From NCBI RefSeq assembly GCF_032854445.1, contig NC_088302.1, forward strand, positions 46,042,645-46,106,644: a stretch of 64,000 bases of DNA, given 5' to 3'. Below are positions 19,480-45,700 of this stretch, piece after piece. This DNA is from Liolophura sinensis (taxonomy: Eukaryota; Mollusca; Polyplacophora; Chitonida; Chitonidae). The notes under the pieces are model-generated. The model ran no database searches and had not been told where the DNA came from. It saw only the letters and a program-made list of their open reading frames with translations. Position numbers and translations under genes: made by a program. Position 1 is the first letter of the stretch. Each line of letters opens with the position of its first letter.

Positions 19480-22400
19480 ATGGCGGGTAACCGCCCCACA
19501 GAGTTGACAGGTGCTGCGGAATGGAGTGAAACGTTGTATCAGTTGAAACAAGCTTTATCTTTAGGAATCACTGAAAGAAGAATATCTGACGAATTCTTTG
19601 TTTTCGATCTGCTTAAGGTAAGATTATGGGGCTGAAAAAGTTTGACAGCGTTACTCGATCTTGCGCACATTCCCTGAATTTAAGACTTTAACTGATGACT
19701 GGTGAGTAGTGTCACTCACATTTTCGTACGGCGTCATTGAATGCATGGATGTCTTTTCTTTCTCGATGGTGAAAATACGACTGCTGTGCAGACCACCACC
19801 GTGTTCTTGGATAACGGCAGAGTGTTGTAGCAGCGTAGCTTGCATCTGTCATTGCGCTAAAATTACATGATGAACTTCAACCCCATGTATGGGACTCCCG
19901 ATATACATGACACAATCTTAACATCTCTCTTAATGGCCATAATCGTATACAGAAACCCAAGCCGTACTACTAACCCAACATGAGGAGGGTTCCGAGTCCG
20001 GAAGTAGTGATCCATCTAAGTATACAGCTTTACATTGTAATTTATTGCGAAATTACTGAAGGAAACAAACCATAAGAATGCAGTAAACGGCAAAAGCACC
20101 TGCTGTATTATGACCATGTAAAAATAATTAAGGCAGTTACTGGTTTATTGTACTAAAATATAAATTCTGTATATGAACTGCAGATATTTGTATTATTATG
20201 TCACCAGGGTGTGTGTGAAGATGGCGTACAGGAAGTGACCAGAGTCCAGCTGCTTACATTCCTGGAGGAGCATGGGCAACTTCTTATTCAGCAAGACAAG
20301 TAGCCACTCAGTTTATCACAAATTCATTACATTTATTGCAGAAACTTTCTTTTTTGTGAAAAGAAATTCTTCCCTTTATATAATTTCAACTCTGAAGGCT
20401 CGTAAAGACAATATGGATGTGTGCAAGACTGTGTTAGATGTGATTTTTGTTCGGTAAATTCTAAGAACTATGAATGTAATACTCTAATGCCCATTTTTGT
20501 TCGAGATAAATCTGTCTGTATAATCCATTTGGATTCTCATCTGAAAGCTTTAACATTTCTTATTTTGATATTGATAAATCTGTATTTTATTTTTTGCAGT
20601 GTTGAGCAAGTTCTGGCCTCCTTACTTGACATATTTCAACAGGGACAGAAAACAGGAACGAGTGGGCCATTTCTGTGTCAAGTGTTGACCACACTGACCA
20701 CTATACTAGTTGAGTTTGACCAGCTGGTGAGGAGGGTTACTCAATACATTATTTCTGTAATCTGTTAATTAAAAAAACACATGTTTTCATATTATGGCCA
20801 AGTGGGTGAGATATACAAATATTGTTGCGACATAAAGGCATTTAATGCACAGGCATGTTTAGTTTTGGAGATTTCTTTCTTGAGATATCTAGCTCCATAC
20901 CAGGAGCCTGCTCCTCTGTTTTTGAATCCAGCTGTAGGCCCTTGTCAGGTGATTTGTGTGGTGCCTGGCAAAGTACAGTGGTTTCCTCCAAGTTCTCTCA
21001 GATTTCCTCCACACATCAAACTGATGTAAAGTGATGTAAAGTAAAGCTGGTTGTACTAAGACACAAAATTGACATGTTTAGCAATGAAATTAAGAAATCA
21101 AGCACTGTTTCCACAAGTTGGGAGAGATGCTAGGCTGGTGCTAAGTATGGTCACTAAGTTTAAATTTTTTCTTAGTATTTTGATTGGCATGTTTGTGGCA
21201 GTTTCTTTGATAACAAAATAAGTTTGATGTTGAAAGGTGAAATGTATCCTCATCAGTATTTACATCAGTTTTTAGTGTATTATATAACTAAAATATTGTT
21301 ATGAATATGACTCTTATGTGAAAACATGCTACACGTTAAATAATTGCAGGAGTTGTTAATGTTTTGTTAAATGTTCAATTTGAACCTTGATAAACCTCTG
21401 CTTACAGGGTAAGGCTGTTGATATCTGTCAGCGTATATTGGAAACACTGTTAACAATCGTGTCCCAGGTGAATGACACAGCTCAACTTCTCCTCCGCTCT
21501 CATGCCTGTTCTTGTCTTCTAGAACTGGAGATTAGCTATCCTGTAAGTATCCTGAAAAAATAAGTTATCATCATCTAAGAATTGAAACTGTATTCATGCA
21601 AAGGTATTGCATTGAGCATTTTTTAAATGTGTGCATTGTTAAGTGCTATCAGCCATAGATGAGTGATGATATTTGTTATGACTACTTGTATGTCACAGAC
21701 ACTGTTGAGGAACAAACTAGAGTGCCTGTACAGTGCTGTGAAGGCAGAGAGGAGCTGGCTATATGAAGACTATGTATGCCTGTTGACCTGCGTTCTACAG
21801 CATGCCCTGGCTGCCCTGGTTACATCAGGTGACAAGTAAGTGTACTATTATGTGACCAAGGGTCCTTGTTACCACAGGTGACTGGTGAGTGGTTATGTGC
21901 CCTGGCAGTCCTGATTACATAGGTGACTTGTCAGTGGTTATGTGCCCTGGCAGCCGTGCTTACCACAGGTGACTGGTGAATGGTTATGTGCCCTGGCCGC
22001 CCTGGTTACCACAGGTGACTGGTGAGTGGTTATGTGCCCTGGCAGCCCTGGTTACCACAGGTGACTGGTGAGTGGTTATGTGCCCTGGCAGCCCTGGTTA
22101 CCACAGGTGACTGGTGAATGGTTATGTGCCCTGGCAGTCCTGGGTACCACAGGTGACTGGTGAATGGTTATGTGCCCTGGCAGCCACAGGTGACTGGTGA
22201 ATGGTTATGTGCCCTGGCAGCCCTGGTTACCACAGGTGACTGGTGAATGGTTATGTGCCCCGGCAGCCCTGATTACCACAGATGACTGGTGAATGGTTAC
22301 GTGCCCTGGCAGCCCTGGTTACATAGGTGACTTGTGAGTGGTTATGTGCCCTGGCCACCCTGGTTACCACAGGTGACTGGTGAGTGGTTATGTGCCCTGG

Positions 22401-25400
22401 CAGCCGTGCTTACCACAGGTAACTGGTGAGTGGTTATGTGCCCTGGCAGCAAAGGTTACCACAGGTGACTGGTGAGTGGTTATGTGCCCTGGCAGCCTAG
22501 GTTACCACAGGTGACTGGTGAGTGGTTATGTGCCTTGGCAGCCCTGGTTACCACAGGTGACTGATAAGTAGTTATGTGCCCTGGCAGCCCTGGTTACCAC
22601 AGGTGACTGGTGAGTGGTTATGTGTCCTGGCAGTCCAGATTACCACAGGTGACTGGTGAGTGGTTATGTGCCCTGCCAGCCCTGGTTACCACAGGTTACT
22701 GGTAAGTGGTTGTGTGCCCTGGCAGCCCAGGTTACCACAGGTGACTGGTGAGTGGTTATGTGCCCTGGCAGCCCTGGTTATCACAGGTGACTGGTGATTG
22801 GTTATGTGCCCTGGCAGCCCTGGTTACCACAGGTGACTGGTGAGTAGTTATGTGCCCTGGCAGCCTCAGGTAACAGTTAAGCTGTAATGTGCCCTGACAG
22901 ACCTAATTACTTCAGGGAACAGGTGAGCTTTAATGTGCCCTGACAGACCTAATTAACTCAGGGAAAAGTGTGCTGCAATGTGCCCTGACAGATCTAATTA
23001 CTTCAGGGAACAGGTGAACTGTAGTGTATGGTGACACACCTGGTTACCTCAGGGAACAGGTGAGCTGTAGTGTATGCTGCACCACCTGGTTACCTTAGGG
23101 AACAGGTTAGCTATAATGTACCCTGGCAGACCTAATTACTTCAGGGAACAGGTGAGCTGTAGTGTATGCTGACACACCTGGTTACCATGGGGAACAGGTT
23201 AGCTCTAATGTTCCCTGGCAGACCTAATTACCTCAGGGAACAGGTCAGCTGTAATCTGCCCTGGCAGACCTAATTACTTCAGGGAACAGGTAAACTGTAG
23301 TGTATGCAGACACACCTGGTTACCTCAGGGAACAGGTGAGCTGTATGTGCACTGGCAGACCTAATTACCTCAGGGAACAGGAGAGCTGTAATGTGCCCTG
23401 ACAGACCTAATTACTTCAGGGAACAGGTGAACAGTAGTGTATGCTGACACACCTGCTTACCTTAGGGGACAGGTGAGCTGTAATGTGCCCTGACAGACCT
23501 AATTACTTCAGGGAACAGGTAAACTGTAGTGTATGCAGACACACCTGGTTACCTCAAGGAACAGGTGAGCTGTATGTGCACTGGCAGACCTAATTACCTC
23601 AGGGAACAGGAGAGCTGTAATGTGCCCTGACAGACCTAATTACTTCAGGGAACAGGTGAACAGTAGTGTATGCTGACACACCTGCTTACCTTAGGGGACA
23701 GGTGAGCTGTAATGTGCCCTGACAGACCTAATTACTTCAGGGAACAGGTGAGCTGTAGTGTATTCTGACACGTCTGGTCACCTCAAGGAACAGGTGAGCT
23801 GTAATGTACCCTGGCAGGCCTGGTTACCTCATGGAATAGGCGAGCTGTAATGTACCCTGGCAGCCCTTGCTGCATGACGGAAGAGGTGAGCTGTGATGTG
23901 CCTTGCAGCTCTGGTTACATCAGAGAACAGGTGAGCTGTAATGTGCCCTGATGCTAAGTTTTTTTTTATATTTTTGTAGTGTGACAGATAACAAGCTAAC
24001 AGATTTGGTGTGTAACAGAAAAGAGGAAATTAAGGTAAGTTGAACCAATGAAAGCTTTAATATTCTGTCTTGACCAATAATGTGTATTATGGATTGGTAA
24101 TGTCATTTGTGTATGGTATTATCTGACTGCCATACATATATAACAAGATATTCAATCAGTCATTTGCGTCTAATGTTTTCCAGGACTGCCCAGACTTACA
24201 GACTCCCTTTTACACTGTGGTAAGTACTACATGTAAATTGTTTTTAAAGTTAAATCATGTTATAATGTATTGAGATTTATATAGTGTACAGTTCTGTAGT
24301 GTATTGGAGTCTTTTTGTTGATAAATAATTTATATTGATTTATCGATAAATAGATTTATTTATTTATTTCATAGGAGTTTTACACCAATGTCGAGAATAT
24401 TTCACTTACAAAATGCGAGCCAGCATTGTGGTTGGTGGAAACCAAGCAAAAGCGGAGGGAAAACCCAAGGTCATCCGTAGGTTGCTGGCAGGTCTTCCTA
24501 CTTACGACCAGAGAGGAGCTGAACTTGTACTCACAGCACCTGCATTAGTGAGAGGCTTGTGTGTCATTATGCTGGGCTACCATGCTACCCACTAGGCCAC
24601 ACAGGCCTCCAGCAGAATTCAGATTTTCCAGCCATTGTAAAAGATTCAGCTAGTCATAAATACTTATTTTTTACTTCTTTTTTAACAGACAGAAGGTATA
24701 AATACTTTTTGTTTTCTTTTAGACTCATTCTGATGACCTCCCGACCTTTAATCCCAGCGTTGAGGCTAAAGAGGTGCTGCAGATTATCTCCCACATCATG
24801 GAACACTCTGTCATGTTCACGCCTGCTGGACTCGTCACCGTCGTCACTCAGCTCATAAAGATTGTCACACAGATTCCAGCCTTGTCACCTATTGTGAGTG
24901 TTTTGTCTTGCCTTTCATTTATATAAGATATATAGTCCTTCTCTTTATACTTTACATCACTGAACAGTTCATCTACATTTGGATCATATCTAATATTTTA
25001 ATATCAGCAATCTTTGGGCTAGGTCAAGCAGAATCCAGTGTCCACATGTAACTGTGGGCAGGCAGGTGTCTGCTGCATGGCACTCCAGTGGGATGGTATG
25101 GTAAAATGTATTGGTCTATCGATCAACCTGGTACAAGATATCGTCCTTATTCTATTTCTTTGAATGGTTCCCACTTGATGAGATTTTGTTTTGTCAAATC
25201 AAAGTACTGGAATGACATTTAAAAACTTGGATATAACGTGAATGATATTTTCTCTGTTTGTTAACCTTTGTTGTCGTTGTAAGATGAGCACCACAAGACT
25301 TACCAGAAGTCAATCTGTCTCGTCAGTGTAGCAAATGTGAAGTCCATGTACATGTACTTCTTGATGACTTTGTCAGGTGTTTAAGCCAGTTCTACTGCAG

Positions 25401-28400
25401 TATCTTCCCACCATGGACCTTTCACTGTTACAACTAGTTCTTACTCTGAAGGTTAGTGATTTTCACTGTAAGGAGTGGCTTCTAAGCTGAAGGTTAGATG
25501 TTGTCACTGTTAAAGCCAGTGCTTATACAATGTGTCTCAAGTTGCTTGATTTTCTCTCTCATGTTGTACATTTTTTTTACACCAACAAGGATAGGAAGAA
25601 AGGTTGTCACAAACAAAATAAGTTAAAATTTTAAAATAAATATGATTAAAAAATAAGAAAATATTAATAAAAAAAAAAACATATATATAAAAAAAGAATT
25701 ACAATTACATGTATTTTGTTTGAAGACAGTAATAGTTAGTGTTGTTATCAGTAAAGTTACACATTGATTTGTCTGTTCAAGACTGTTGGCATTATCATGT
25801 ATAATGTTGTGAAATATCTATATTTGCAGAGAGTATTTAACGGAGTGCTGTTATCTGAGCTAGAAGAGAAGGCCTTACTCCAGCACTTCATGTTTGCACT
25901 TAACCATCCAGGTTATGCAGCTGCCCATAGACTGCTAATCTACCAGTGGCTATTTCACTACGACTCTAAAACAGGGGTAATATAGAAAAGACCGTACATA
26001 TCATATTCCTTCAGGTCATACCTAACATTTTGATACAAGCAATCTTGAGGCTAGGCAAAGAGTGGTCCAGTATCGCTGTATAACCATGTAACTGTGAATG
26101 AGCAGTGGATCACCACATCAGTATGATGTCTTCTGTATGACATTCCAGTGAGGCAGCACTGTGAAATGATTTTGCCCTAGGGACCAACCTGGTAAAAGGA
26201 GACATAATCATGATAAGACCAGCATAATCGTCAAAGCAACGTTAAACCTCAATCATTCAGTCAATCCGAAATAGTTTAAGAGTTTAATATCCTCTCTCTT
26301 GAGGCAAATGCATTTAATGCTTTGTAATAACTGCATAATTAGTTTTGGATTTCCCTATGTAATGTCACCATGATGTGCATGTACACACAGAGATTGCTAA
26401 TATGGCATAGAACCATAACCATACTTTATCTTCTTGTGTCCAGGTTTCTGAATCTGACCATTTACCTGTGCGCCTGTCTGATCAGAGCTATGATCAGTTG
26501 TTCCCTTCAGTCTTTGATGGAGTGGACACTCAGGTGGTCAAACTACGGTCACTCAGTCTGTGTCTGAAGCCAGGTGCTGAATCAGGTAAGGTAGCTTAAC
26601 AGCTGCTTTGATGTAAATAAGACTAAACTAGACATAACAGAATCAGCAGTGGTGAATAATATGCTAAATGAAAAAGACTTAAAAATAATACACGGACATG
26701 AAACAGTTAAAAATATTGCCCTGACATGAATAAAATTAATGGTGGAAAAGAGTAAAAGCGAAAAAGTGCATGAAAACACATAAAACCACATAAAAGAGCC
26801 TGCTTGCATATGATAACATTTGAAATGAAAATCTTGATTGTTGAAAATGATGAAAATCAAAAAACAAAATTGCTTTTTTTTCTCTGCCTTGGAGCATGAG
26901 GTGCTGAGAAAGTAAATGTGTAAATTTCAAACAAAGTGACACCTCTTATAATTGACTATATGTTGAAATGTACTCATTTGGTGAGCCCTGGTGGTGTGCC
27001 CTTTTCCCAGACATGGCCTCAGCTGTCTTAATGAGCAGCCTGGTGAACTTACACAAAACTGTGCAGCACAATGTCAGCGGGAGGGCCACAGTCGCTCTCT
27101 TCAGGGTGCTCTTCACCTTCTACAGGCAACACCTGGAGAGCTGTCTACCTCAGGACATCAAACAGTGAGTTACCTGCACAGCCAAGTGACTCTGGATTGA
27201 GTGATTGATTGGTGTTTGATCATAATGATGAGAATTACACTAAACTCTTGTTTTAAAACAGCTTTTTGCATTGTCTTTGGCAGATCGTATGTTCAAATCT
27301 TCACCATGCTATGTACAGGTGACTGTTTTCTTGGCTATATATTATGGTTAGTGTCATAACAGTTTTGGCATATTTGATGTCATAAATTATTTATTTTTTT
27401 GTACTCAAATCACAGTTGGGTTAGATGCTGATAAGGCTGTCGTTGGTTCAGTAGTTTAAGAGGCATGTATAAGAGTAACATCACAAAGTTTGTATGTGAA
27501 AAACAACTTCTGATTAGTTTCTTGCAAGGTTTATGTGTACATTCTAACATGGTTATAACGCATTTAAAGAGTCATATAGAAGTTCACATCATTGTTTCAG
27601 GTTTATTATTGGGCTGGTGTCTAACTCCATCCAGCTAGTCCCATATGCCATTGACTTCCTAAACTCCCTGACACAACTGCCACAATCCAGGTATGCTCTA
27701 AGTAGTGGTTGATTCAAATTGGTGAGTCACAAATGCATAAAGTGGGTTAGCATGTTTCTGGTAGAAAGTGTGAAAGGCCTTGGGGGAAGTTGAACTTTGT
27801 GAGAACCTGAAGCAATAGATTTAAAACAGTAACGACATACTGAGAAAGTTTTTGGGGTGAACATTGAAATTCTACATTTTGTACAAGTACAAGTTGTTAA
27901 AACAAACGCTGGTATTTTTTTAAGTATATAAAACTTCACCAATATAGAAGTACATGTATAAGTTACTGAAGAGAAACACTTATAATTTTTCTTTGAGGCC
28001 TTAATTACAAATGTGAATCTTTTTGACATGTCAGGTATTATAATTTAATATGACACTACAGTGTAAATGGTAGAAAAAGACTTCTTTTTCTCCCCCAACT
28101 CCCTGCAACCTCACTCACTCACCTGCCCACCCATCAGTGGTGTACACTTGGAGATACTGAAGGCCTTACACAGACAAGTGGTACAGTCTCCAGCACAGGA
28201 TGTCACTTCACAGTTAGACTATGTGCTGCAGGTCCTGCAGAAAGCTGCCACAGAGAAGCAAATCAACCCCAAGGTATGTGGATCTACCTGTACATGAATA
28301 TCATGAGGGAAATCTTTAGGTTCTGGTACATGAAAGCCTGCTCAATGATTCAGGGTTAATTTAGTGTGGTTTATTAAATCATTCTCAAACAGGGAAAGTG

Positions 28401-31400
28401 TGACCAACTAAAACACAAGATAACAGATTATCTCTGGTGAAATTTGCGAGTAAATGTGGGGGTCAATACATACATATGATATAATAAAAGATAACAAGTG
28501 TACATTAAAAGTAAGAATACTGTATGTCACCTATACTAGTAGTTTGGTACATAAAATGTTCTTTCAGAATCACATCAAGCCCTTACAAAGATACTATTGG
28601 TGGCAACACTTTAAATTTTTTCTGATAAGAAATTTATCAAGCTTCAAACTCAGCTCTTAAGTGGCCCCTGTAAGGTTGATGAATCAGTCAAAATCAACTA
28701 TTAAGTGGCTCCTGTAAGGGGACGAATCAGTCAAAATCAACTCCTAAGTGGCCCCTGTAAGGTTGATGAATCAGTCAAAATCAACTCTTAAGTGGCCGCA
28801 GTAAGGTGGACGAATCAGTCAAAATCAACTCTTAAGTGGCTGCAGTAAGGTGGATGAATCAGTCAAAATCAACTCTTAAGTGGCTGCTGTAAGGTGGACG
28901 AATCAGTCAAAATCAACTCTTAAGTGGCTGCTGTAAGGTGGACGAATCAGTCAAATCAACTATTAAGTGGCTCCTGTAAGGGGAGGAATCAGTCAAAATC
29001 AACTCCTAAGTGGCTCCTGTAAGGTGGACGAATCAGTCAAAATCAAGCAAACTGTGCCACTTATTAATTGTTTAACTGTAGGTGTAATACAGTATGTGTT
29101 TAGTTCATCTAATAGCGAAATATTTAAACCAAGATTTGTTTTTAACTGGTTGTGAAATAAGAAAACAGTGTTGATTTCAGATTGAAATGTTGTAGTATGA
29201 AATTGTAACGCATCTCAGCCAGTGCTTCAGTCTTTATTCTTCCCTTGTTGCTGTAGATGACTTTGAACTTCCTGCAGCGTGTGTTAGAGTGGGCACCACA
29301 GTTGCTCCAGGGAAACTGGGTGCATGGGAATGCTGTGCTGGCCGTGGGCAGGAATATACTGCAGCATCACTCCACTGACCTCATCTACAATGGTTAGTTG
29401 GCGTGCTATGGTGGCTTTTTGGTGTGCTAGGAATTACTGGATCCAAAATCACCTCTGTAAATACAGACCATACGATAACTATAACTGGTAAAGGCATATG
29501 CTGTGGTCTGATGAGGCATTAATGTAAAATTCCATTTATCAATACAACCCATAAATGTAAGATACATATCATTGATAGAAGCATATATTATGAATTAATG
29601 GGGCAGCACTGTTAAACCACCTCTATCAATACAGCCCATAACATACATGTAACTATAAATAAAAGAGGCGTATTCTATGACTTGATGGGGCCTCAGTGTA
29701 AAATCCCACGTTCATGCGGCTAATACCTTATAATCCTGCAATTGTACTACATGATAACCAGACCCCTTTTTAAACCCATGGGTTCTAGCTTAGCTTTGCA
29801 GTGTCACATGCCTTATACACCCTATACATATACAGTGGCATCGACTGGAAGCAGTACGGCCACTTTTCATTAAAAAAAAATTGTAAAAAATAAATAAATA
29901 AAATACATCAAAAGTAATGTCGAAACAAATTTAATGACGACCAACAAAATGAAGGCCAATGCTCGCACTTGAGCAATATAAACTGTTAAGCACATAAAAC
30001 TACTTAAGAAAACTAGGATTTCCTCGCACCTCCAGCCATCTAGCATCTGAAAGCTTCAGGGACACAGGTGGCCTCTGTTCCCTCATCTTTTGTTCTGGGA
30101 TAGTCGACTGATGCCGATGCCACTTTCAAATTGCTTCTGAGGTGCTTGATCTACCAATGTTCTTCTGAGAAAAAATTAAATTCATTTAAAGTTTGTTTAC
30201 ATTGCTTAATTACTGTATCATTTCAGAGTTGGGTCGGCTGTTCCATTCCATGATGACAACATATGACGATGTAGATATAAAGGACAGGGCGAGGTTTTAC
30301 TATGCCTTGTTGACTGGGGCTTCAGATGAGAAGGTGAGCTGGTTTTGTTATCTCTCCAGGTAGATTTGTCATATGTACACCTGCAGACTGTAGTAACTGT
30401 TGATGATTCATCAACCCTGCACATCAATCAGGAGTGTGTAAAATCTGATTGGCAGGTACCTTATGCTTGTATCTTAGTGTATAGATGATTTGTGATCCAA
30501 CTGCAGAGAAATCAGAATCAAATTTGAGACAGAAATCAAGTTTGGCAGGGGATGATTTTGAGAAATCATTTAACCTGTGAGGTGTTGTTGCCTGCAAATT
30601 AATCTTGTTTATATATTTACGTGAACACACTGCTTAATTTGTCAAATGTCTAAGATATGTATGTATATGTATAAAACAGGGATTGTTATAGGACACATTT
30701 TGGGGTTACAGCTGGTAAGCATGTGAGAAAGGTATATTCTTGCTATTCTTAAAGTGAGCAGCTTGGTCGCCGTTGATGAGGGAAACATTTAGTTCTATTT
30801 CTTTCAGATAGGACTGGTACTCACAAATTCAACAGCAAAGAACGGCACCTCCAACAGTAGTCTACAGAGTATAGTGGCAGGTAAAATAGTGGTTCATTTG
30901 TAAGTAAATTAATTGATCGACTGATCAGATATGGTCTGATTTATTATATGCTGTGTGTAAAGTTGTTAGTTGTGTAGTTAGTTGTTAGGATGTACTTTAC
31001 AACTTATAGACTCTAACTTCGTCCTTGCATGTATATATCAAGTACGCTCCTGTGCCTGAAATTTTTTTTACACATTCACAGCTGTTATTATACGGGTAAA
31101 TACTGGTACTAATTCATATACATGTATTGTATCTCCTATTGTTGACATATTTTTCACAATCACTTAGATTATATTTAGATGCACATTAAATATAAATATA
31201 TTTTCAGAATGTGTGTCTTGTTACATACAACCTAGCTGAATAGCTCTAAAACTTAATCATGTCACTGATTGTGTATTGCAAGGCATTGTTGGTAAAAGAC
31301 GGGTTCACATCTTGTACATGTAGCTATGGTATCTGACATCATTTCTCTGAGTGTCGGCTGGAGAAAGATTTTATGTACAGTGACACCTTCATGACCTTTG

Positions 31401-34400
31401 TAGAGACTAGTACTACTAATGACAGCACATATCAGTTAACAGGTGGCATGCTAACCGCCAAATTTAAGCAGCTCCAGAAAAACATACATCATACTGTAGA
31501 AACCAGATCTTATGATCATAAGTCCACCAAGTTCTGCCTGATTTGTTCCCATCACAGCGCTGGGCGCCGTTTTGTCAGTGAAATACAGCATAAAACACCA
31601 ATGAAATAAATAAATCAAATGGAAATGGCGCATTAACATCTTCTGTTACTTCTCTTTTTTTTGTCGGAATGCACCAGAGTAAGAATGTAGTGACCTGGTT
31701 GTGGGTTAAGGCTATTTATTCATTGTTTGTATAGTCTTGTAAAAGAATGACTGATATATCTATTTCCCTTATCCAAAGACAATGACAGTCATCGCTTAAG
31801 GAAATATTGAGCTACTGTAATATGGGTAAATGTTCCTTTACAAATAACAGTCTGGGTAATAAGCTATGTGTATATATTTACAGGACCGGGGGGCTTCCTC
31901 AATCAGACAACACTTACAGAACTGGAGAAATCACCTGTAACATGGACCAGGTGTGTGTTACTGAAACAACTCCTTCATTTACTCCTTATAAAGTTATGTG
32001 TTCGAATGAAAGAGCTTTTTTTTTTAAAAACATGCAATGTCTGCCTTTTTAATTAGCTTAATTCTTCACCTTTTTTAACCACCACTGTAACCCATATTTT
32101 TAAACATTCTGAGAGAACTAAGGGGTGTGGAAAATTATTTGCACAGTTTTATGAAGCTTGTTTCCTTTTTGGCATCATTTTCATAATAATTGCATGCATA
32201 CATTCCACTGGAAAAAGTGGCCGGTGGTTGAAAAGGTGGAAGATTTACAGTAAACTGTCATTGATGTTAGAGAGTTTTTTTCATGAGTAGGCTAGTTACA
32301 ACAGATTTACCAAACTACTGATTTCTGGGTAACATTTCGAAACGTGTATATGTATATGATAATACTCATACATGTTTGTCTCACTGTAGACTGACCCAGC
32401 GTTACAAATGGACACCACAGCCGCCGGCCATCAGTCAGGATTCTGTCACACAACGTGCAGGTTTGTGTCGTAAACATGTCGGGTGTTTAAAAGACTTAGA
32501 TATTGATAGGTTAAAATTGTAGTGTGTGGAAATTGGTATCTCTTTTTGTCTGTCTAAGAACAGAAAGGGGCTTGGAAACATAAATCAGAATAATATTCTT
32601 TGCTGTTTATGAAAACTAAGGATTTTCTTTGCCAGTGGTTCTGATTATATGATTGTCTTGTCATTTCCATGTGACACTGGATCTTCTTAATTCCTAATCC
32701 TGTATCTCAACCTTACTATTCACAGATCCTGTCAGGTTATACCTAGAACAGCTTGACATGCATTCACCCGTCCTGGAGTTCAACTTTCAGCTAAGAATGG
32801 TAAGCCTAATGTATAGTAATTATTAATTTTCTTTATTCAATAACTGTAATAAAAATATAAAGCCAAACAGAATCCACAAAACTTAATAATGCCATTTTAT
32901 TACAGAAATCCACTCAGTACATGTTGTGCATTGTTAACTTCCTGTTAGGATGTTAAAATCTCTTAATTGATTGACTTTTTAAATGTTCAATATAAACATG
33001 AACAAAATGGAAACTTGAACTTGACTTTATGAATATCCTTGATGGTCGTGGGTTTCCTCTGGGCTCTGCCCGGTTTCCTCTTGCCCTTATGCTGGTTGCC
33101 ATCGTATAAGCGAACTATATGTATTCTTGAGTACCGCATGAAACACCAATCAATCAGATAAATAAATAAATATAAAACAGAAATCTATAGAATCATGAAA
33201 TGAACATTTTCAGCCTTATGTAAGGAAGTTTTTACAGTAGCCTGAAAATTATTTTTTTGTCTTGCACAGGTGGACATTTGTGATTTTGACCAACTTTTAG
33301 CTGTTACCATTGAAATAGAGACGAATTCCAACTGTGAACCTGTTAAAGGTACATTGTATGTCTTATGAAGATACTATGAAATAATAGTAAACATAGTAAA
33401 CATGACTTAATGAGTTATTTATTTATTTATTTGATTGTTCTTTGCCATACACAAGAATTTTGCTATGATTTAATGATGTTCTGGTAATCGTATGCTAAAC
33501 TGTGTAAGGCGTATGTTTATTAAAGTTTCTGTAGTCTGTAAAGTTGGTAATTGTTTCAGCTAATTCTTAAGTTTCCATTCTGCAGATCTTATTTTGATAA
33601 CAGTACATGTATATGTGATTATTCCTTGTATATTATTTGTAGATGTCCATCTCTCCTGTTTGCTACCCTCTGGTGAGTTTAGTGACTTTTGTGAGGGAAA
33701 GCACTGTATTGACACTTCATACCACCAACTGATACAATGAAAGAATGTAGATTATCAAATTTTAGCAGTAGAGTACATATGTGCTAAGATATAAATATTT
33801 ACATTTTAGATACATTGTATTTTATTTTGGTCATGAATGTTAGCCTGAGTATGTTTTCCAGTGCATGGGTTATGAGTCAGTTTCAACTAAAATCAAAGTT
33901 TCATTTCATTCATTTTAAAGAAATTTTATTACTCTCAAAACATTTCAGCTGGCACCCCAGTTATAGCACTTTTAAAATTTAAACCCATATATATAATTAA
34001 TGTATGAAAGTCATGGCATTACAGTATGTACTTATTAAGATAAATATATTCATATTTTTTGGCATCATACAAAGACAGTATCATACTAGAAAAGAAATGT
34101 GTTGATTCATAACCAGAAAAATTTGAGGTTTTCAGGTGATATGGCCACCAGTAGCTAAAGACTATCACCAGCATTTATAAAAGCAGCTATTATACATGCC
34201 TAAATAAAAATTGTAGCATAATTTGAAATAACTGTCAAACACTAGTGGTGAAATATGATATGGTGCATAGTAATTATATTCATCATGCAAATAATCCTCC
34301 TGTGTTCAGTTTGCTATCAAAACTAAACTACATAATTTGTGTTAGTACATGTATCTCTCACCTTTTTTGATTCGAGAAAGGTTAAGAAGGAAAAAGGAAG

Positions 34401-37400
34401 TATACATGTGTATATGAATTGAGACCATGTGGGGTGATCTACAAGGTTCATGACATTTAGAGTATGGCACATTATGAATAGACTTTAATGCAGATCATCT
34501 GGTTTATTTCAGAAGAGAAGAGTTTCACTGTTGATTTGATTCCAAAACTGCCATTACCAATGTCTTATCCAGCAAGGTTATCATCTTTTCATTGTTCAGA
34601 ATCCATGCAATTACTCAAAATCGGTTGTCATGCCTGAAAGTATTACCAATGTGTCTCATGTCCTTATTATGAAATCATGAGAAAAATAAAGTAGGCTGCT
34701 AAATACTCAAAAATTCTCTGTAAACCGTTTTGTTAATTCTTTTAATTCATTGAATTTAATAATTTAAAACCAAGGTTATATTTATAAGAGAGATCAGTAA
34801 AAGTATGTTCGATAATTCCATGAAATGTATTCATTTTTTGTAGGTTTATTGTTTCATTGAACTAAACAGTTATTTTATAGGTTCAATATTTAAGTTAATG
34901 ACACAGTATTAAATTTAAAAGTTAAACCCGTTTTGGCATATTTGTTATACATTGTAATAATAATGATGCCCCTTCCCCCCAAGTGTTCTCCGCCTGATAA
35001 CTGTTTTGACAGTCTACACATCCGCCTCACTAACTCTGGCTGTTCTAGCTCATTAGCTATCAGACTAACTGATTGAGCCTCATCTTTCAATTCATTTTTA
35101 CACCTGAAAACGAAGGCTGAAAAACTTATTTTGTATATTCCTACAATTTAGAACATGCCATAAAGTAATTGAACAGCGCGAGAAGTATTTTATATCAGAA
35201 ATCCTTTAAAAAGCTGTAATTTCGAGATTGTATTTGAACCCATCCTTACTGTAATCTTTGCTATGTGAAATTCAAGTTGTTAGAATGAAGGTTGATATTT
35301 TCTGCATTATAGAGTGATGTTTACCTCCCCTGACAGTCGCACCTACTCCTGTCAACTTGAGCCTGTGGACGTTAGATTCGAGGACTATTTTGTTCCTGTA
35401 CCGATCACACTTTGTACTGACACTGACCCAGAACTGTTCTTCAACAGACTGTGGACAGATACTTTACTGGACAAAGTAACGAGTGACAAGTAAGTTGTCC
35501 TACTGATTGCTGCTGTTAACATTGTTAATCTTTCACACGGCCAAATGTGTTAAAGTCACCAAGGTCAGGGGAGGTAACTCTTTAATCCAAAATCTTCATG
35601 GCCTGTATTGTTTCCACTCTAATTCAACTCCAGGCATCGACCACTGTAGTTGTGATTATAGGTATATTTCATTGCACAGATGCGTGTCTATGTTAGTTCT
35701 TGTGTGAATGGACAAAGAATTAATTGCATGTTTAAGTTTAGAACACATTGTTCTTGCTCTAAATGGAAATAATTTTAGATATTTGCCGATGGTCCCTTAA
35801 AACATTGCATCGGAAGTGCAGTATTCCAAAATATATGACCAGTTCTCGTCATGGGTGTATACATTGATAAAACAAAAATTGTTAGAAGTAGAAGTAAATG
35901 GCATGGGCTGCGTCCATTGAAATATTTTTTGCCTGGGTCTACTGTTGTATTTTTTAAACGTGCTTCAGTGTTGACAGTGTCATGGGAAGCTCAGTAGTTG
36001 GAGACGTATGGCATTATGTGTTAAGTTTTGTCCACCTGTTAAGACGTTTGTCACAGTAGGATTAATTTCTTACCTGTCAGCCCTTCGGGGCTTGACAAGA
36101 CATGATGACATTGGGATATGATTCGTATGAATTAAATTCCTCAGAGACCTCAGGATTGCAACCCTTTGGATCTCTTGTCTGACTCTCTACTGTGACTCGA
36201 AAAGGCATGTGGTTGGAAGGTACAAGATCTGGGAGAATGTTCATTGAGATGTGTGTCTTGAAAGCGTGTGTATTATTTGTCTTGCATGAAACATCTTGTA
36301 GACGGACCTTTTTCTTTTCGCACTGTTTGCGGGTCGATAGTTTGTCCGGCTTTTTAAATGGTTTTTTTTAATTGTTGACTTTGACATAACCTTTAGTTGG
36401 ATGGCTCAAACCGGTTGTGGATATTTATTGCAGAAGCACAACTTTCATAATGGTTGTTGTATTGTCTGTTTTTTATGACAGGTAACATCAGTTAGGCCCT
36501 GTTTGCGTTGTTCATGTGTTGTTTATATTCTCTTCCAGTACATCTGGTGAAAGGGGAGTTCAGTCTGTTTACTCACCCAAGTTTGGAATGGAGAAAATGG
36601 AGAAAATTTTATGCGGAAAACTGAAGCCGTTCGTCATAAATTCTAATTCAGGTAAGTACATATTTGATAAATATATTTGTGTCTCTGTTAGTAGGAAGAA
36701 TATAATGATTTATTTAATATTCATTTTGGGAATTGTTGTCTGCTTGATTTATTTATTTGATTGGTATTTTACGTCGTCCTGAAGAATATTTCACATATAA
36801 GACGGCGGACAGCATTATCCTGGGAGGAAACCAGACGGAGCCTTTAGATACCCATATTGAACCGCAATTTCCTGGCACACCTTCCCACGTATGACTGGAG
36901 AGGAAGACAGCATGAGCTGGACTTGAACTCACAGCGACAGAGGCCCCGTTTTCTGTTTGGTATAGATATGTAATTTGGTTTATTTGTGTTAAATGTCCTG
37001 ACAACACACCATTTTGAGTGATTCAAGACCAGTGACGTCTAATAAATAATACAGTTAACATCACTGCAATTTTTGTTGCCTAATTCTGCCTAATCCATGG
37101 TGCTAGGGGCGTGTAAATTGCTGCTATTGAAGCATTTACATGGACAATTGGAATAAAACCCAGAGGTAAACTGACAGGGCCGTACTTCACCGGTTACGTG
37201 TGATCATTTGCCAGTTATTACACTGTCGTCGCTGCTCTAGGTTTACTCTCTATCCTGTAGTCTCTTATATTTCTAATTTTAATGTGTTTCAAAACCTGAA
37301 ACTAAACATTACTTTTATTACTGTATTTTTAGATACCCATGTACATCGTGTGGCCATCCTCTCAAAACCTGAAACTAAACATTACTTTTATTACTGTATT

Positions 37401-37657
37401 TTTAGATACCCATGTACATCGTGTGGCCATCCTCTCAAAACCTGAAACTAAACATTACTTTTATTACTGTATTTTTAGATACCCATGTACATCGTGTGGC
37501 CATCCTCTTACCTGTCCACCATCACCTGCTAATGAAGATTGAACCTGTGGACGGGAGAGTGATCATACACACTGCCACGGATCTCTGGGAAATTTTGGGG
37601 GTTTTACAGACGTTTTTAGACAATTTACACGACGAGGGTACTGGAGATCATTCTTGA
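19480..37657 (+). CDS. AP5B1: AP-5 complex subunit beta-1 (AP5B1), 26 exons
   Basis: Large subunit of adaptor complex AP-5, which works with SPG11/SPG15 on late endosomes and lysosomes in retrieval to the Golgi. Exons: 19480-19617, 20208-20299, 20600-20726, 21408-21542, 21699-21835, 23980-24034, 24184-24219, 24723-24893, 25377-25451, 25830-25976, 26444-26585, 27011-27164, 27601-27690, 28138-28273, 29257-29392, 30227-30333, 30808-30880, 31884-31950, 32390-32460, 32726-32799, 33270-33348, 33643-33672, 34513-34576, 35313-35489, 36539-36651, 37479-37657. All phases join into one frame of 934 aa (human about 878). Family-like segments are RSHACSCLLELE (exon 4), KDRARFYYALLTG (exon 16), PELFFNRLWTDTLLDK (exon 24) and CGKLKPFVIN (exon 25). 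An alpha-solenoid trunk is followed, from about residue 690, by a beta-rich appendage-like end. The start ATG has G at -3 and +4. Confidence 0.9.
21836..23950 (+). repeat. 46-bp minisatellite carrying copies of the exon 5 donor site
   Basis: About 45 tandem units fill intron 5 of AP5B1, starting at the splice donor. Subfamily 1 (about 21870-22865) has the core GTGACTGGTGAGTGGTTATG then TGCCCTGGCAGCCCTGG. Subfamily 2 (about 22866-23950) has GGGAACAGGTGAGCTGTAAT then GTGCCCTGACAGACC. The end of exon 5 plus its donor (GCCCTGGCTGCCCTGG, then TTACATCAGGTGACAA, then GTAAGT) aligns with the same unit. The array is therefore an amplification of the exon-intron junction, and most units keep a good donor (GTGAGT or GTGAGC). 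Confidence 0.92.
24353..24609 (-). mobile_element. tRNA-derived SINE, full length, in AP5B1 intron 7
   Basis: Tail-first orientation: 'tatttatttatttcatagga', 'gagaatatttcacttac', 'ccagcattgtggttggtgg', 'gtcatccgtaggttgctggc', then on the minus strand a B-box-like segment (complement of 'gaacttgtactcacag') and an A-box-like one (complement of 'gctacccactaggcca'). It lies antisense to the host gene between exons 7 and 8. Confidence 0.85.
24970..25170 (+). repeat. Dispersed repeat family R2, copy 1 (AP5B1 intron 8)
   Basis: Blocks 'taatattttaatatcagcaa', 'catgtaactgtgggcaggca', 'gcactccagtgggatgg' and 'caacctggtacaagata' recur in the same order at 26005-26270 in intron 10. It is non-coding and likely a short interspersed element; its end is truncated relative to copy 2. 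Confidence 0.65.
26005..26270 (+). repeat. Dispersed repeat family R2, copy 2 (AP5B1 intron 10)
   Basis: Same block order as the copy in intron 8: 'cctaacattttgatacaagc', 'ccatgtaactgtgaatgagc', 'acattccagtgaggcagc', 'ggaccaacctggtaaaag'. It ends in 'gcaacgttaaacctcaatca' and 'ttcagtcaatc', an end type I associate with molluscan SINEs. Confidence 0.65.
28645..29045 (+). repeat. 44-bp minisatellite in AP5B1 intron 14
   Basis: About nine copies of a 44-bp unit with the core CTTAAGTGGCTGCTGTAAGG followed by TGGACGAATCAGTCAAAATC. It lies well inside intron 14, over 350 bp from exon 14 and over 200 bp from exon 15. It does not resemble either neighbouring exon border. Confidence 0.9.
31530..31616 (+). 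mobile_element. Degenerate SINE tail in AP5B1 intron 17
   Basis: 'gcgccgttttgtcagtgaaa', 'tacagcataaaacaccaatg' and 'aaataaataaatcaaa' match the 3' end and tail of the SINE in sense orientation, with a short internal loss. Confidence 0.6.
33045..33175 (+). mobile_element. SINE fragment in AP5B1 intron 20
   Basis: Sense-orientation body and tail: 'gtcgtgggtttcctctgggc', 'tctgcccggtttcctcttgc', 'gtattcttgagtaccgcatg', 'caccaatcaatcagataaat' with the AAAT tail. The tRNA-like head is missing. Confidence 0.8.
36745..36948 (-). mobile_element. SINE copy in AP5B1 intron 25
   Basis: Tail-first copy: 'gatttatttatttgattggt', 'aagaatatttcacatataag', 'cagcattatcctgggagga', 'cacaccttcccacgtatgac', 'catgagctggacttgaactc'. 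It ends at the B-box region; the A-box end is missing. Confidence 0.85.
37027..37275 (-). repeat. Dispersed repeat family R1, copy in AP5B1 intron 25
   Basis: Reverse-orientation copy of the element at 7551-7788: 'ccagtgacgtctaataaata', 'gttaacatcactgcaatttt', 'gcctaattctgcctaatcca', 'caccggttacgtgtgatcat', 'cactgtcgtcgctgctctag', 'gtttactctctatcctgtag'. It ends about 15 bp before the 73-bp triplication at the exon 26 acceptor. Confidence 0.75.
37289..37508 (+). repeat. 73-bp triplication of the AP5B1 exon 26 acceptor
   Basis: Three almost identical 73-bp units each carry intron sequence, the acceptor 'actgtatttttag' and the first 30 or so bases of exon 26 (ATACCCATGTACATCGTGTG). Acceptor AGs fall at 37331-37332, 37404-37405 and 37477-37478. 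Only the third leads to the open 59-codon final exon. Splicing to either upstream copy shifts the frame and ends early. Confidence 0.95.
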
Positions 37658-39711: not shown

Positions 39712-42700
39712 TTAATTTTTCCAGGCCCCTTTCCAGATATTAGACAAACAGACCGTGGAATGGAAACGGAAAAATATGGCAAGAGGAATGGAAATGTGTG
39801 AGAGAATGTTCCAGGCTAACGCTCCGTAGTAATGCATCTGTACAGGATTAGCCACTGTTCTCTCCGCCTCAAATGTGTTGATGCACCACATAGCAATGTT
39901 AGTGATCAGTAAAAACGTGACATATTCCCGGCCACTCTTTTGTCGACCCTGCTCGGCAGTTCTCGTACATCTCCGGAGACCGTCCAGCACGAACATGGTT
40001 TGTATGGTGGACTGGGTGATACCCAGAAGACAGGCAGCGATGCTGAGGCGACTTGCAAACTGCTCCTTGTCAAATATAGCCGCAACAATACTGAGCATCT
40101 GGAACATGTAATCTCCTGTCAGGGAGATAAGAATCAATACTTCTTCAAAATCTGTGTCGCGCGTAACGTTGAAACGAAGATAGCGCATACGTGTTGCCGC
40201 TATTACCACAGCTATGGTGGACAATGTGAACAGAGTTATTTCTGACAAGTACTCCACCATAATTGCTGACCGATTGTACGTAGGAGTTTTAACGAGGACG
40301 AAAAACACGACCATAGTGATGATAGTGCCGACGAGGATGAGGATTCCCAGGAAGAGGCCTCTGCTGGACTTTGAGCAGTCCACACGGAGGCGATGAACCA
40401 CAGCTCTATCGTCTTTGTCGTCCTCAGATTTGATGGCCATCACACGTTTACCGATGTTCTTCCACAACGTGTACACGATTCCTGAAACAGATATTGAGAG
40501 AACTTTTGAAAAAGAAAATTCCATGTCTCGTGCACTGTTTTGAACAACATGAATCTTATCTGAACATTCCGCTATATACCATTCATATTTTTTGAAATAC
40601 AATGGTTAGTCACTTGATAATGATCCCGGCATGAGGATCGAAAGCTTGTGAAACCTTTTACATTTACGTGGTAGTGCCTCGACTTCATTATTATTATTAT
40701 GAATCATGGAAGAGTTGGTCATATCATTTCAGTTTAAACCCATCTATATTGAAAAAATGTGACAGATGATGTGATTCTTTTAGTGGTACGGACTAGGAAC
40801 ATACAATAACATCGCGGCTCTTCTGGACAACAGTTATTTCTATGTAGCTGCCGAAGGGCAGTCGTTCAATGCGGGCGCACTGGTTTCCTGCTCCCATAAA
40901 CTTGACCGCCACCTTATTGTATTACTGGAAATATTTGGACAAACCACGTTCAACACCCAATTATATAAAAAAATAATATCGCAACGTGTGAACTGTTCTG
41001 TGATTTAAATCTTCTATGGTGCAAATTTTATGGAACATAGACCAGTGGCATTTTTACCCCACTCGGCGTTTCCAAACGGTTGCTACAAATCGTAATTCAA
41101 GAAAGCAGCTTGACACATATGCATGATATATCTAACTTTTAAATTGTTCGTGTATTTCTACCCACATTATCATGTACCTGCATAAATCAAGCTGTATTCT
41201 ATGGAGCAGGGATGCAGATAGGGGCTGACCCGCACATTATCACGTACCAGCACAAATCAAGCTGTATTTTATGGAGCAGGGATGCAGGTACGGGCTGACC
41301 CACACATTATCACGCAGCTCCACAAATCAAGCTGTATTCTATGGAGCAGGGATACAGGTACGGGCTGACCCACACATTATCACGTACCAGCACAAATCAA
41401 GATGTATTCTATGGAGCAAGGATACAGGTACGGGCTAACCCACACATTATCACATACCTGCACAAATCAAGCTGTATTCTATGGAGCAGGGATACAGGTA
41501 CGGGCTGACCCACACATTATCACATACCTGCACAAATCAAGCTGTATTCTATGGAGCAGGGATACAGGTACGGGCTAACTGTTTCCAGGACACTCAGCAT
41601 TAGCTGGCTGGTCTTACAGTCAAAGTGAGTCCCCACGACCGGAAGAACTGGGGAAGGAAAACTTCTCTCTGAAAGACAAAATCTTTATGAAACAGGATGT
41701 AAATGATTTGAGGAAAGTTACTGATAAAAAATATTTTTGCTTGTGGCAAGAATATATATTGACTTGTAGATCTGTTTCTCTTAACTGGAAATCGTTTCAG
41801 TTAGACAAGAAAAACTGTTTTGTGTTAGAGACTGCGACCCTAGTACAATTTGAGTAGAGTTTTCAGAAAACCGAGACAGCGAGTCAGGTGAAGTTCATAA
41901 ATTACAATCTGTTAAGACCCCAAGACACGCTGGGTCTGATTCATATGACTACATATAACTGTGAGCCTATATGTGTTTGAATAAGCACGCTTTACGAGCC
42001 CCACACAAAATGTGCTTTGAAGAAAGTGTCGTTTTACACACGTAATTTGAATGTTTCAACTGACTTTGGGAGGGGAGACATTATCTATTTCAAAAATGGA
42101 CAGTATGAAAAAACATCCCCCAAAACAAGAACAACGCTGGCCTGATCGTTGTTAAATACATTACTTTTGAATCTTGATCAAAAAATGGTTAGGATAATCG
42201 GTCTATAGTTCGGGTCATGGTGGACCATATCAAACTAAAGCGTAGTGTGGGTTAAAATGTTTTGAGGAAAAGGGTAATGAGTTGTTAACACATATGCTTG
42301 TAAACTGTACCTTAAGATATCCACGATAAGCTTTTGATATCTATGTACCTGTATTTTACAGCATAATCCCAAACAGGATTGTATATGGCAAGGGGTTCGC
42401 ATATGAAATAGGAGATCAAACCGTGAAATTTAAACCAAAATCTGAACGAAGTCAAAAGCGAAGGGTCAGACGAACGTACCCGATAGTTTAAAACTATGCC
42501 AAGCAATGAATTATGATAAGGGATTCTCATACCAAATCTGAGACCAATCCTTCATGCCGGAAGGAGGATATCGCACAGTAACAAGGATTTGAACAACCGG
42601 ACAGACGGATGATCCTGAATACAGAAGTAATCCCAAGCAAAGCTCCATTACAAGAAATTCACATACCAACTATGATATGAATCCAGCAAATCGGAGTGAA

Positions 42701-45700
42701 TGTAAGGTGCGGAAACCAACACAATCAGAAGGACAGATGGAAAAACGGACGGAAGGACAGACGGACGGATAGGCTGCCCTCTTTGTACAAAGGTATACAG
42801 ACACGGTTAGGTCGTTAGCTGAGGCCAGCTGAACTTTGCCGATGCGTTCACGTCCACGAAGACGTGACGAAAAACAAGAGCTGAGGTGTTATATAGCAAA
42901 AGTAGAAACTGACCATGGGTCACGTTTTGTGGATTGAGATGACTATGTTTGCGTATGAGCTGAGCTGCAGTTGTGGTCAAGTGAGCAATAGTTCCATGGA
43001 TATCCACTGGTCCGTAATCTCGTCCTCGAGCGGAGACGTTAATGCTGTGGCGTCTGTTGACGTCAGCCAGCAACGTCCGGTTTGGCGTCGGCGTTGTATG
43101 CTCCTGAGAATACAGCACGGCGGCCAAATCGTGGTGGGGTGACGAGTCTATGTTTCCCAGTTGATGTAGGGTTTCCTCTACGATGGTGTTGAACCATACA
43201 CAGATGTTTGTGGCCACCATGTGCATGAGGCCAAACCGGGCTATGGTCTTGTAACGGTTGATGCACATCTAGAAGAAGACAAAACGGAAACGCTTTGACA
43301 AATTTCCGAAAACAGTGTTCAGTTCAAACAATCAAAGAACTAAGAAAAAACATATATACACTTGGAAATTGGGACGGAATCAAGCAATGTGAAACATTTG
43401 CTATGCTAGTACATAACTTTTTTAAATCAAAATATATATCCCAGTTGACCTTTGGTTCGTATATTCATACGCTTCCCCTATAGCCCTTTCTATAACAGTT
43501 TCTTTAGACAATTACCACGCAAGAAACCAAACAATAAATCAGATACACCAAGCAACATGCAGAAATACTGACAAAAGAACAGGTCTGAAATCTTTCTCAG
43601 CGAGTTACAGAAAAATTAAAAATTTACCTTAGAGTTTAAGAAGACAAAGTAAAGCTGGACAAAGGTAAACATCAGGTGTACGATCGGGCGGATGGCGAAA
43701 ACTGCATGTCTACAGGGATCTATTACCTCCACCTCAAAATAGTCTCCAAACTGTAGGCCGCTATGAATCATGGAACCGATGCCAAATGCTGAAAACAATA
43801 GAGAAGAAAAAATAGAAATTATATCAAAAGAGCGAATTCTACAAGCCCTTGAACATTCTTGGTTTGACAAAGAGTGAATCCAGGCGTAGAAACCATTCCT
43901 ATACCAATTTCACTGGACCTTCCTGGTCAATAATGGCAAGACCAATTTCCAAACAAACATTCAACCTTAAATGAGGAGCATATAAAGTAAGAAATTAGAG
44001 CGGATTCAGTATCTACAATCCACGGTCCTAGATTCATAGAAGTACAATGTATTTCTCAAGACAGACACTGTGCTAATAAATAAGTTACCTGTAAACCAAA
44101 AATGTGTGATGACATGTATGATTGGGTATATACGTCTTATACTGTGTGATTATAAAAACCAAGAAACAAGTGTAATGCATTTGAATTTTGTACAGGTTAT
44201 TCAAGGTTAATTTTCGAACTGACAGTATGCTGAATTACCCACAGCACCTAGTCGGAGGTAAAAGCTTCCGGTGTTAGCGGTGGGAAAACTCGTGCTACAT
44301 TATACTCCAAGCTATCACCTTTACTGGTGGAGATTAAACCCAAAATCTTGTACGTTATTCAAAATGCTGGCTTACCCACAGCACCTAGTCGGAGGTAAAA
44401 GCTTCCGGTGTTACTGTTGACTTTGTCTACTGAGACCTTTCGTTTCCGGTGTTTCTTCTTCTGACTTTGACCCGAGGGGGTCGTCTTCTTGGCGGCCCTA
44501 GTCCGTAACAGGTATGTGTACACATAGCCCAGGAAGAGGATGCTGCCACCGTACATGTAGATGTAAAACACCTGAAATCAGAGACGTGTACACATAGCTC
44601 AAGAAGAGGATGCTGCCAACGTACATGTAGATGTACAACGCCTGAAATCAGAGACGTGTACACACAGCTCAAGAAGAGGATGCTGCCGCTGTACATGTAG
44701 ATGTACAACACCTGAAATCAGAGACGTGTACAAATAGCCCAAAAAGAGGATGCTAACAACGTACATGTAGATGTAAAACACCTGAAATCAGAGACGTGTA
44801 CACATAACTTAGGAAGAGGACGCTGCCGCCGTACATGTAGATGTGAAACACCTGAAATCAGAGACGTGTACAAATAGCCCAATAACAGGATGCTGCCGCC
44901 GTACATGTAAAGGTAAAACACCTGAAATCAGATACGTGCACAAATATAACCCAGAAAGATGATGCTACCGCCATACATGTAGATATAAAACAAGCGAACA
45001 ATCGTGTGGAAAGCTACGTCATGACAGGCAAACAAATCAAGGTTAGGCCTATAGTCAGGAAGCGGTCCTGTCGCCGTGCCTGAAGGTAAAGATGTATAAA
45101 ACATTGAAGTAGGAGACGCTTACCATCAGTTCATTTATATGCAAATGTGTGGCAGGCAGTGTGTGAATTTTGCACCTGATTGGGTATTTACAGGGGATCT
45201 GAAAAACTTTCTCTTCTCCGCTCTCTTTGTGTTCAGGGTGTAACAGGGTGACGGATTACTAACCATCTGTGGTGCGTAAGTGTCATGGCATTCAGGCCAT
45301 CGGCTATATTAAGGAGACACATGGATATTGAAGTACTGTTGAAATGTACGTCATTGTTTATGAATCAGAACAAAACCAAGCACCCTCCCCCCTAAAGCAC
45401 ATGAAGTGAGGATACCGATACACTTGAGGCTAATTATAAGAACACAGACTGGAAATGGAACAGTTGTATAGTTCGATGTTGAACTCACCTCAAACAGAAG
45501 AGGATGCTTCTCTTGTGCGAATAATTCTGCAATAGGTAAGACTGCGCCTAAGATCGTGAGGAACATGGCATACATCCCACTGAGGATGGTGAAAATGCTC
45601 TGCCTGGAACAAGATATAGCGGAAAGCCATGGTTATGGGAAATAACAAAAAAATATTCCATGTTTCGGAGTTAACTCCAGTCACAGATTAAATGTTCGTG

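Follow-up and report, generated by a model that had tools for sequence, protein, structure and literature searches.

Tandem arrays over existing exon-intron borders in two adjacent genes of a chiton and in a sample of its other genes

Two adjacent genes of the chiton Liolophura sinensis, AP5B1 and an otopetrin gene, carry tandem repeats whose unit crosses an exon-intron border. The question raised by this locus is whether splice junctions have been multiplied by chance, by a process that favours them, or as a by-product of intron birth. The locus was analysed as a window of 64,000 nucleotides (contig NC_088302.1; C8:46042645-46106644 of the genome searched, which comprised 609,464,459 bases in 632 contigs), and positions without a prefix are those of the window. 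Both in the window and in a sample of unrelated genes, the array unit holds exon as well as intron sequence of the true junction. The authentic exon is intact and the extra copies are intronic: Pfam-anchored exons run on from the exon-side copy, and the AP5B1 model is open. Such arrays recur in the genome, and in the two introns that were tested the intron is older than its array.

AP5B1 lies at 19480-37657 on the plus strand. The 26-exon model is an open reading frame with a GT donor and an AG acceptor at 25/25 introns (exon 2: 20208-20299), and it matched the Pfam families AP5B1_middle (8.5e-78), AP5B1_C (1.2e-11) and AP5B1_N (1.2e-5). The 46-bp array over the exon 5 donor was reported by Tandem Repeats Finder (TRF) as two rows, 21864-22865 (22.0 copies) and 22864-23951 (23.7 copies), and the alignment of the last 33 exon bases to the unit was equalled by 0/2000 shuffles. 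Splice sites were scored with weight tables that follow general consensus values and were not fitted to the chiton genome; on this scale 24 intronic GT sites of intron 5 score at least 4.5 (range 5.0-6.7) and 22 of them exceed the authentic donor (5.7), so that the right donor would not stand out by its sequence strength. The authentic acceptor of the intron (5.7) is outside the array, within which the best acceptor scores 2.5; the extra copies could therefore hardly act as mini-exons. Proximity to the exon's own acceptor would explain how the right donor is chosen.

The exon 26 acceptor is present in three identical units, with exon starts at 37333, 37406 and 37479, and the last of these is the one continuous with the exon. 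A genome search with this locus placed the array at a single position: beyond approximately the first 80 query bases the locus matched only itself, and the other 70 among the matches listed (scored candidates) were a dispersed repeat in those first bases. No second haplotype of the locus was found in this search of one assembly. The short dispersed repeat itself stands beside the array (37209-37287) and has dozens of genome matches; these are partly clustered at regular spacing (e.g. C3:3225941-3226663), hence pieces of the element may form tandem arrays.

The minus-strand gene of the window is an otopetrin, with exons matching PF03189. Besides the authentic junction, its donor array has five copies, of which 69, 66, 65, 64 and 59 of 70 bases are identical with growing distance from the exon; the GT is lost in one of the five. 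In the acceptor array, five further copies all keep the AG (60-62 of 70 bases identical) and are accompanied by a diverged part copy. The single extra donor copy of the same exon shares 48/50 bases with the authentic one. Just past the window, the same strand carries a second otopetrin gene (L021, C8:46109834-46113205), in which no array lies at a usable junction (defined below).

A preliminary description of this window had listed six junction duplications in the two genes. Five are clear, and the sixth, at the AP5B1 exon 9 donor, is marginal, since 2/2000 shuffles scored equally well. The donor and acceptor labels given there to the otopetrin junctions fit the minus strand, and the two comparison arrays were correctly placed off exons: a 44-bp array is intronic (AP5B1 exons 14-15) and a 40-bp array is located past the AP5B1 stop. 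The coordinates are collected in Table 1.

Table 1. Positions of exon-border arrays and related features in the window.
Feature	Position	Strand	Basis and remarks
AP5B1 exon 5	21699..21835	+	Exon model, alignment to unit; final 33 bases form the copy of the 46-bp unit on the exon side
46-bp minisatellite over exon 5 donor 21835/21836	21803..23951	+	~45 copies; occupies most of intron 5
AP5B1 exon 9 donor 25451/25452 and one degenerate copy ~41 bp downstream	25421..25515	+	Marginal
44-bp minisatellite x9.2 in AP5B1 intron between exons 14 and 15	28644..29046	+	No exon touched (comparison)
73-bp unit x3 over AP5B1 exon 26 acceptor	37289..37508	+	TRF (3.0 copies, 100% identical)
70-bp unit x5.9 over otopetrin donor 41528/41527	41163..41576	-	TRF; copies run into intron
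Single extra donor copy, otopetrin exon of the 44571 acceptor	44190..44420	-	Authentic donor 44376/44375, copy at 44238
70-bp unit x6.8 over otopetrin acceptor 44572/44571 (exon start 44571)	44516..44992	-	TRF

The window was chosen because of its junction pattern and thus cannot test the generality of that pattern. Forty gene slices (279.6 kb, 342 usable junctions) were chosen by exon matches to Pfam families, not by repeats. The first sample (20 slices, L001-L020: myosin head, CCT chaperonin and adaptin) was chosen before any repeat scan, and the replicate (20 slices, L024-L043: kinesin and SNF transporter) before the repeat scan of those slices; three otopetrin paralogue slices (L021-L023) were taken separately. 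Slices were hand-picked from gene clusters by the number of matched exons (L012 holds 3 anchors within the slice). The replicate consisted of compact clusters (4 or more matches inside ~7 kb), a choice that tilts it towards genes whose arrays are few or short. An exon border was used only where a Pfam-anchored exon ended and the splice score was at least 0.5: from 406 exon ends (112 + 91 anchors), 356 passed and 50 were dropped, giving 202 usable junctions in L001-L023 and 154 in the replicate, with 342 of the 356 within the 40 slices. Predicted exons were kept out of the statistics, because a gene finder whose exon penalty was lax had put false mini-exons into the 46-bp array.

An array needed a period of at least 20, a score of at least 70 and no fewer than 1.9 copies; rows that overlapped were merged and two low-complexity arrays were dropped. 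It counted as junction-spanning when it covered 6 or more bases on each side of the junction. All 15 first-pass matches were read by eye and three junction calls were corrected by hand, bringing the count from 15/66 to 13/66. An acceptor array in L005 (junction corrected to 8753) merely abuts the exon and another in L043 (corrected to 2572) is entirely intronic, and both were rejected; the L037 donor was moved to 1395 and still counted, with 6 exon bases. The reading by eye covered these 15 arrays, so that further junction arrays may have been missed. In L017 (4391-5434, 82 bp x12.7) and L016 (3619-4706, 121 bp x9), the units resemble an exon end plus donor; these arrays, which are probably junction copies of exons lacking a Pfam anchor, were left uncounted, and the L017 array alone scored as a strong sense donor.

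The 13 cases come from 11 of the 40 slices, are spread over six scaffolds (28-96 Mb) and amount to 3.8% of the sampled usable junctions (13/342). They occur in CCT (L001 and two in L005), adaptin (L009, L012), myosin (L013, L015, two in L018, L020) and kinesin genes (L031, L035, L037), at 8 donors and 5 acceptors. Unit length in the cases seen, window included, varies from 25 to 109 bp and copy number from 2 to ~45; the longest junction array is 3.3 kb. Unit length is a multiple of three in 4/13, without preference, and in L015, L035 and L037 just 6 to 9 exon bases are within the array. In 11/13, in-frame read-through of the authentic junction runs into a stop codon after 66 nt or less. The GC (guanine plus cytosine) content of the sample is 39%. 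A G-quadruplex (G4) motif was present in 1/69 arrays, a junction array of L035, and G4 as a cause is unsupported.

The preliminary description had proposed a shuffled-position null, and a null of this kind was applied to the 40-slice sample. For the unit null, surplus copies were collapsed and one unit per array was placed randomly in its slice: pooled, junction-spanning arrays number 13/66 where 3.55 were expected (P 3.3e-5). The expectation rose to 4.58 with GC-matched unit placement (P 2.3e-4) and to 7.94 with doubled units (P 0.041); when at least 10 bases were required on each side, 10/66 were observed versus 2.78 expected. The signal is carried by the first sample (10/45 versus 2.12 expected, P 2.3e-5). 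Around the 356 junctions, 11 array edges fall in the outermost 40 nt of exons and 3 in the 80 nt that follow, and intronic edges number 1-5 per 40-nt bin (mean 3.3) over 600 nt of intron. Under unit placement an excess appeared in genes unrelated to those of the window; it is modest, depends on the null and rests mainly on the first sample.

Several results weigh against such an excess. The replicate alone was not significant (3/21 versus 1.43 expected, P 0.16) and reached 1/21 versus 1.11 when at least 10 bases were required on each side, and 0/6 SNF transporter slices carry a junction array. With whole arrays placed randomly in the main sample, 11.9 were expected versus 11 then counted, before the three junction corrections (P 0.70). 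The whole-array null was deemed unsuitable because it lays expanded arrays over whole exons, though expansion does not replace an exon, yet its outcome makes plain that the excess is model-dependent. This null and the replicate, together with the otopetrin paralogue slices (0/3 arrays at a usable junction), would suit a reading in which there is no real excess, a minisatellite-rich genome gives junction arrays by chance and the window is a lucky cluster. We regard this reading as doubtful, given the first-sample and pooled counts under unit placement; moreover, selection against exon damage should lower the count below chance, not raise it.

A mutational process aimed at splice junctions might also be proposed, for example one in which exon borders are sites of breaks, R-loops or stalled forks whose repair by tandem duplication would raise the birth rate of arrays there. 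The excess under unit and GC-matched placement, the peak in array edges immediately within exons and the involvement of donors and acceptors alike would all agree with it. However, 53/66 arrays span no usable junction, and the 56/69 arrays off usable junctions (L021-L023 included) have no splice-motif sense bias: the donor score is higher in the sense orientation in 25 and in the antisense in 30, with a strong sense donor in 2/56. Duplication itself therefore does not need a splice motif, and splice motifs as a general duplication target are unsupported. The weak result under the doubled-unit null and the replicate also speak against a junction-directed process, and a retention bias could yield an equal excess; we consider such a process possible but rather unlikely.

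The relative age of introns and arrays was assessed in paralogues. The myosins L018 and L019 have a common intron at the same residue and in the same phase, with an 18-copy array in L018 and none in L019. Likewise, the otopetrin donor covered by the 70-bp array corresponds to an array-free donor in the tandem paralogue L021. Since the paralogues carry the same intron without the array, the intron is older than the array in both cases, and this supports the view, already taken in the preliminary description, that existing junctions were multiplied and not introns born. The alternative is intron gain via tandem duplication of AGGT-containing exon DNA, of which the arrays would be remnants. Such gains have been published and, in the part of the amphioxus literature used here, were proposed for globins (PMC3087553). 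For the chiton arrays we find this explanation highly improbable: in addition to the two paralogue pairs, each of the 13 sampled arrays touches one usable junction only, and the authentic acceptor of AP5B1 intron 5 lies outside its array.

An assembly artefact can be set aside with nearly full confidence. Three identical 73-bp copies, as at AP5B1 exon 26, could in principle stem from a mis-joined overlap, but copies within most arrays differ from one another and junction arrays recur in 11 of the 40 slices. Their length is also below that of the mean read (8.3 kb) of the published Liolophura japonica assembly, for which the portion of the description used here gives PacBio high-fidelity (HiFi) reads at 14x, 632 scaffolds, 609,495,693 bases, a longest scaffold of 96,433,062 and an N50 of 37,343,639 (PMC11068029).

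The explanation that we favour, and hold to be probable without being secure, is that ordinary tandem duplication, acting locally in a genome where arrays cover 13.9% of the sampled DNA, is tolerated when it includes a junction, and that junctions hold a modest excess of arrays. Local duplication of the usual kind, together with slippage or unequal repair, would give birth to the arrays; where the unit chanced to include an exon border, later expansion would multiply the junction. The working exon end would remain the copy that continues into the body of the exon, and the other copies would become intron. Units of this kind may be tolerated because a single copy adjoins the exon body and misused copies would mostly meet a stop codon, and splicing at these junctions is presumably correct. 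An added bias in birth or in retention could produce the modest excess.

Other features were noted during the analysis. A degenerate repeat of 18/54/108 bp, with a period that is a multiple of three, is found at 60814-61224 in the window; one minus-strand frame is open across the 600 bases read and is rich in Pro, Ser and Thr, and the repeat may be coding. Stretches at 24350-24620 and 36740-36950 have the appearance of short interspersed nuclear elements (SINEs), which we take to resemble elements of bivalves and other lophotrochozoans. On the same contig, eight consecutive haemocyanin beta-sandwich matches lie on one strand (C8:37880506-37891931), as expected of a molluscan haemocyanin gene.

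The closest known structures are the "mirages" of amphioxus and the exon stuttering of chicken. Mirages, as far as they are treated in the portions of PMC3087553 and PMC3902484 drawn upon, are minisatellites over exon borders in Adh3, globins, troponin C and PGBD5, with units of 10-72 bp in Adh3 and 150-160 bp in globins, on the donor or acceptor side. They have many extra copies with AG/GT signals and a known length instability; regular splicing is apparently unharmed and is backed by reverse transcription polymerase chain reaction (RT-PCR). The chiton arrays resemble them in that the unit spans the exon-intron border while the authentic exon is intact. Unlike the amphioxus cases, which were described gene by gene in a chordate, those of the chiton come from a mollusc and a many-gene sample with a null model.

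Exon stuttering, in the corresponding portion of PMC12954441, affects 236 chicken introns in 115 genes, 190 of these introns on dot chromosomes. Local, imperfect tandem copies of the exon edge and its splice site, most of them crossing the border, run through the adjacent intron, over 90% of the copied exon pieces lie at most one base from the border, and an ohnologue without copies serves as a contrast; high GC and G4 are suspected by the authors. The chiton shares the exon-edge copies with a splice site in the adjacent intron and, for the two introns tested, a paralogue without repeats at the same position. In contrast to the GC-rich dot chromosomes, the chiton cases are spread over large scaffolds, in a sample of low GC content whose arrays rarely hold a G4 motif. 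Tandem duplication involving splice signals is likewise common to the chiton arrays and to AGGT intron gain; the two differ in that the chiton intron position is older than the array in the introns tested.

Searches of an open-access library listed no report of junction arrays in chitons or other molluscs. The preliminary description had suggested that this may be a lineage-specific mutational or splicing trait: the arrays do recur across the chiton genome, but given the like structures published for amphioxus and for chicken dot chromosomes the suggestion holds only in part. What is new is the setting, namely a mollusc, AT-rich DNA, six scaffolds and the share of sampled junctions affected; the anatomy itself was known from lancelet and chicken. 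A genome-wide, ongoing duplication that favours exon-intron borders, with thousands of junction minisatellites in AT-rich DNA, is for chitons only a tentative idea. If it were true, a GC-rich dot-chromosome setting would not be required and the exon borders themselves would be fragile or favoured. As a rough extrapolation, the sampled rate held over the 28,010 protein-coding genes given for Liolophura japonica in the part of PMC11068029 used here would yield far more such junctions than the chicken's 236 introns. Each junction array also sets nearly identical splice sites in natural competition with a single authentic one, so that the spliceosome's choice of the exon-joined copy can be tested directly, as can the proneness of exon borders to tandem duplication. 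Junction duplication, so far a rare gene structure, would now be shared by three distant lineages (lancelet, bird and chiton).

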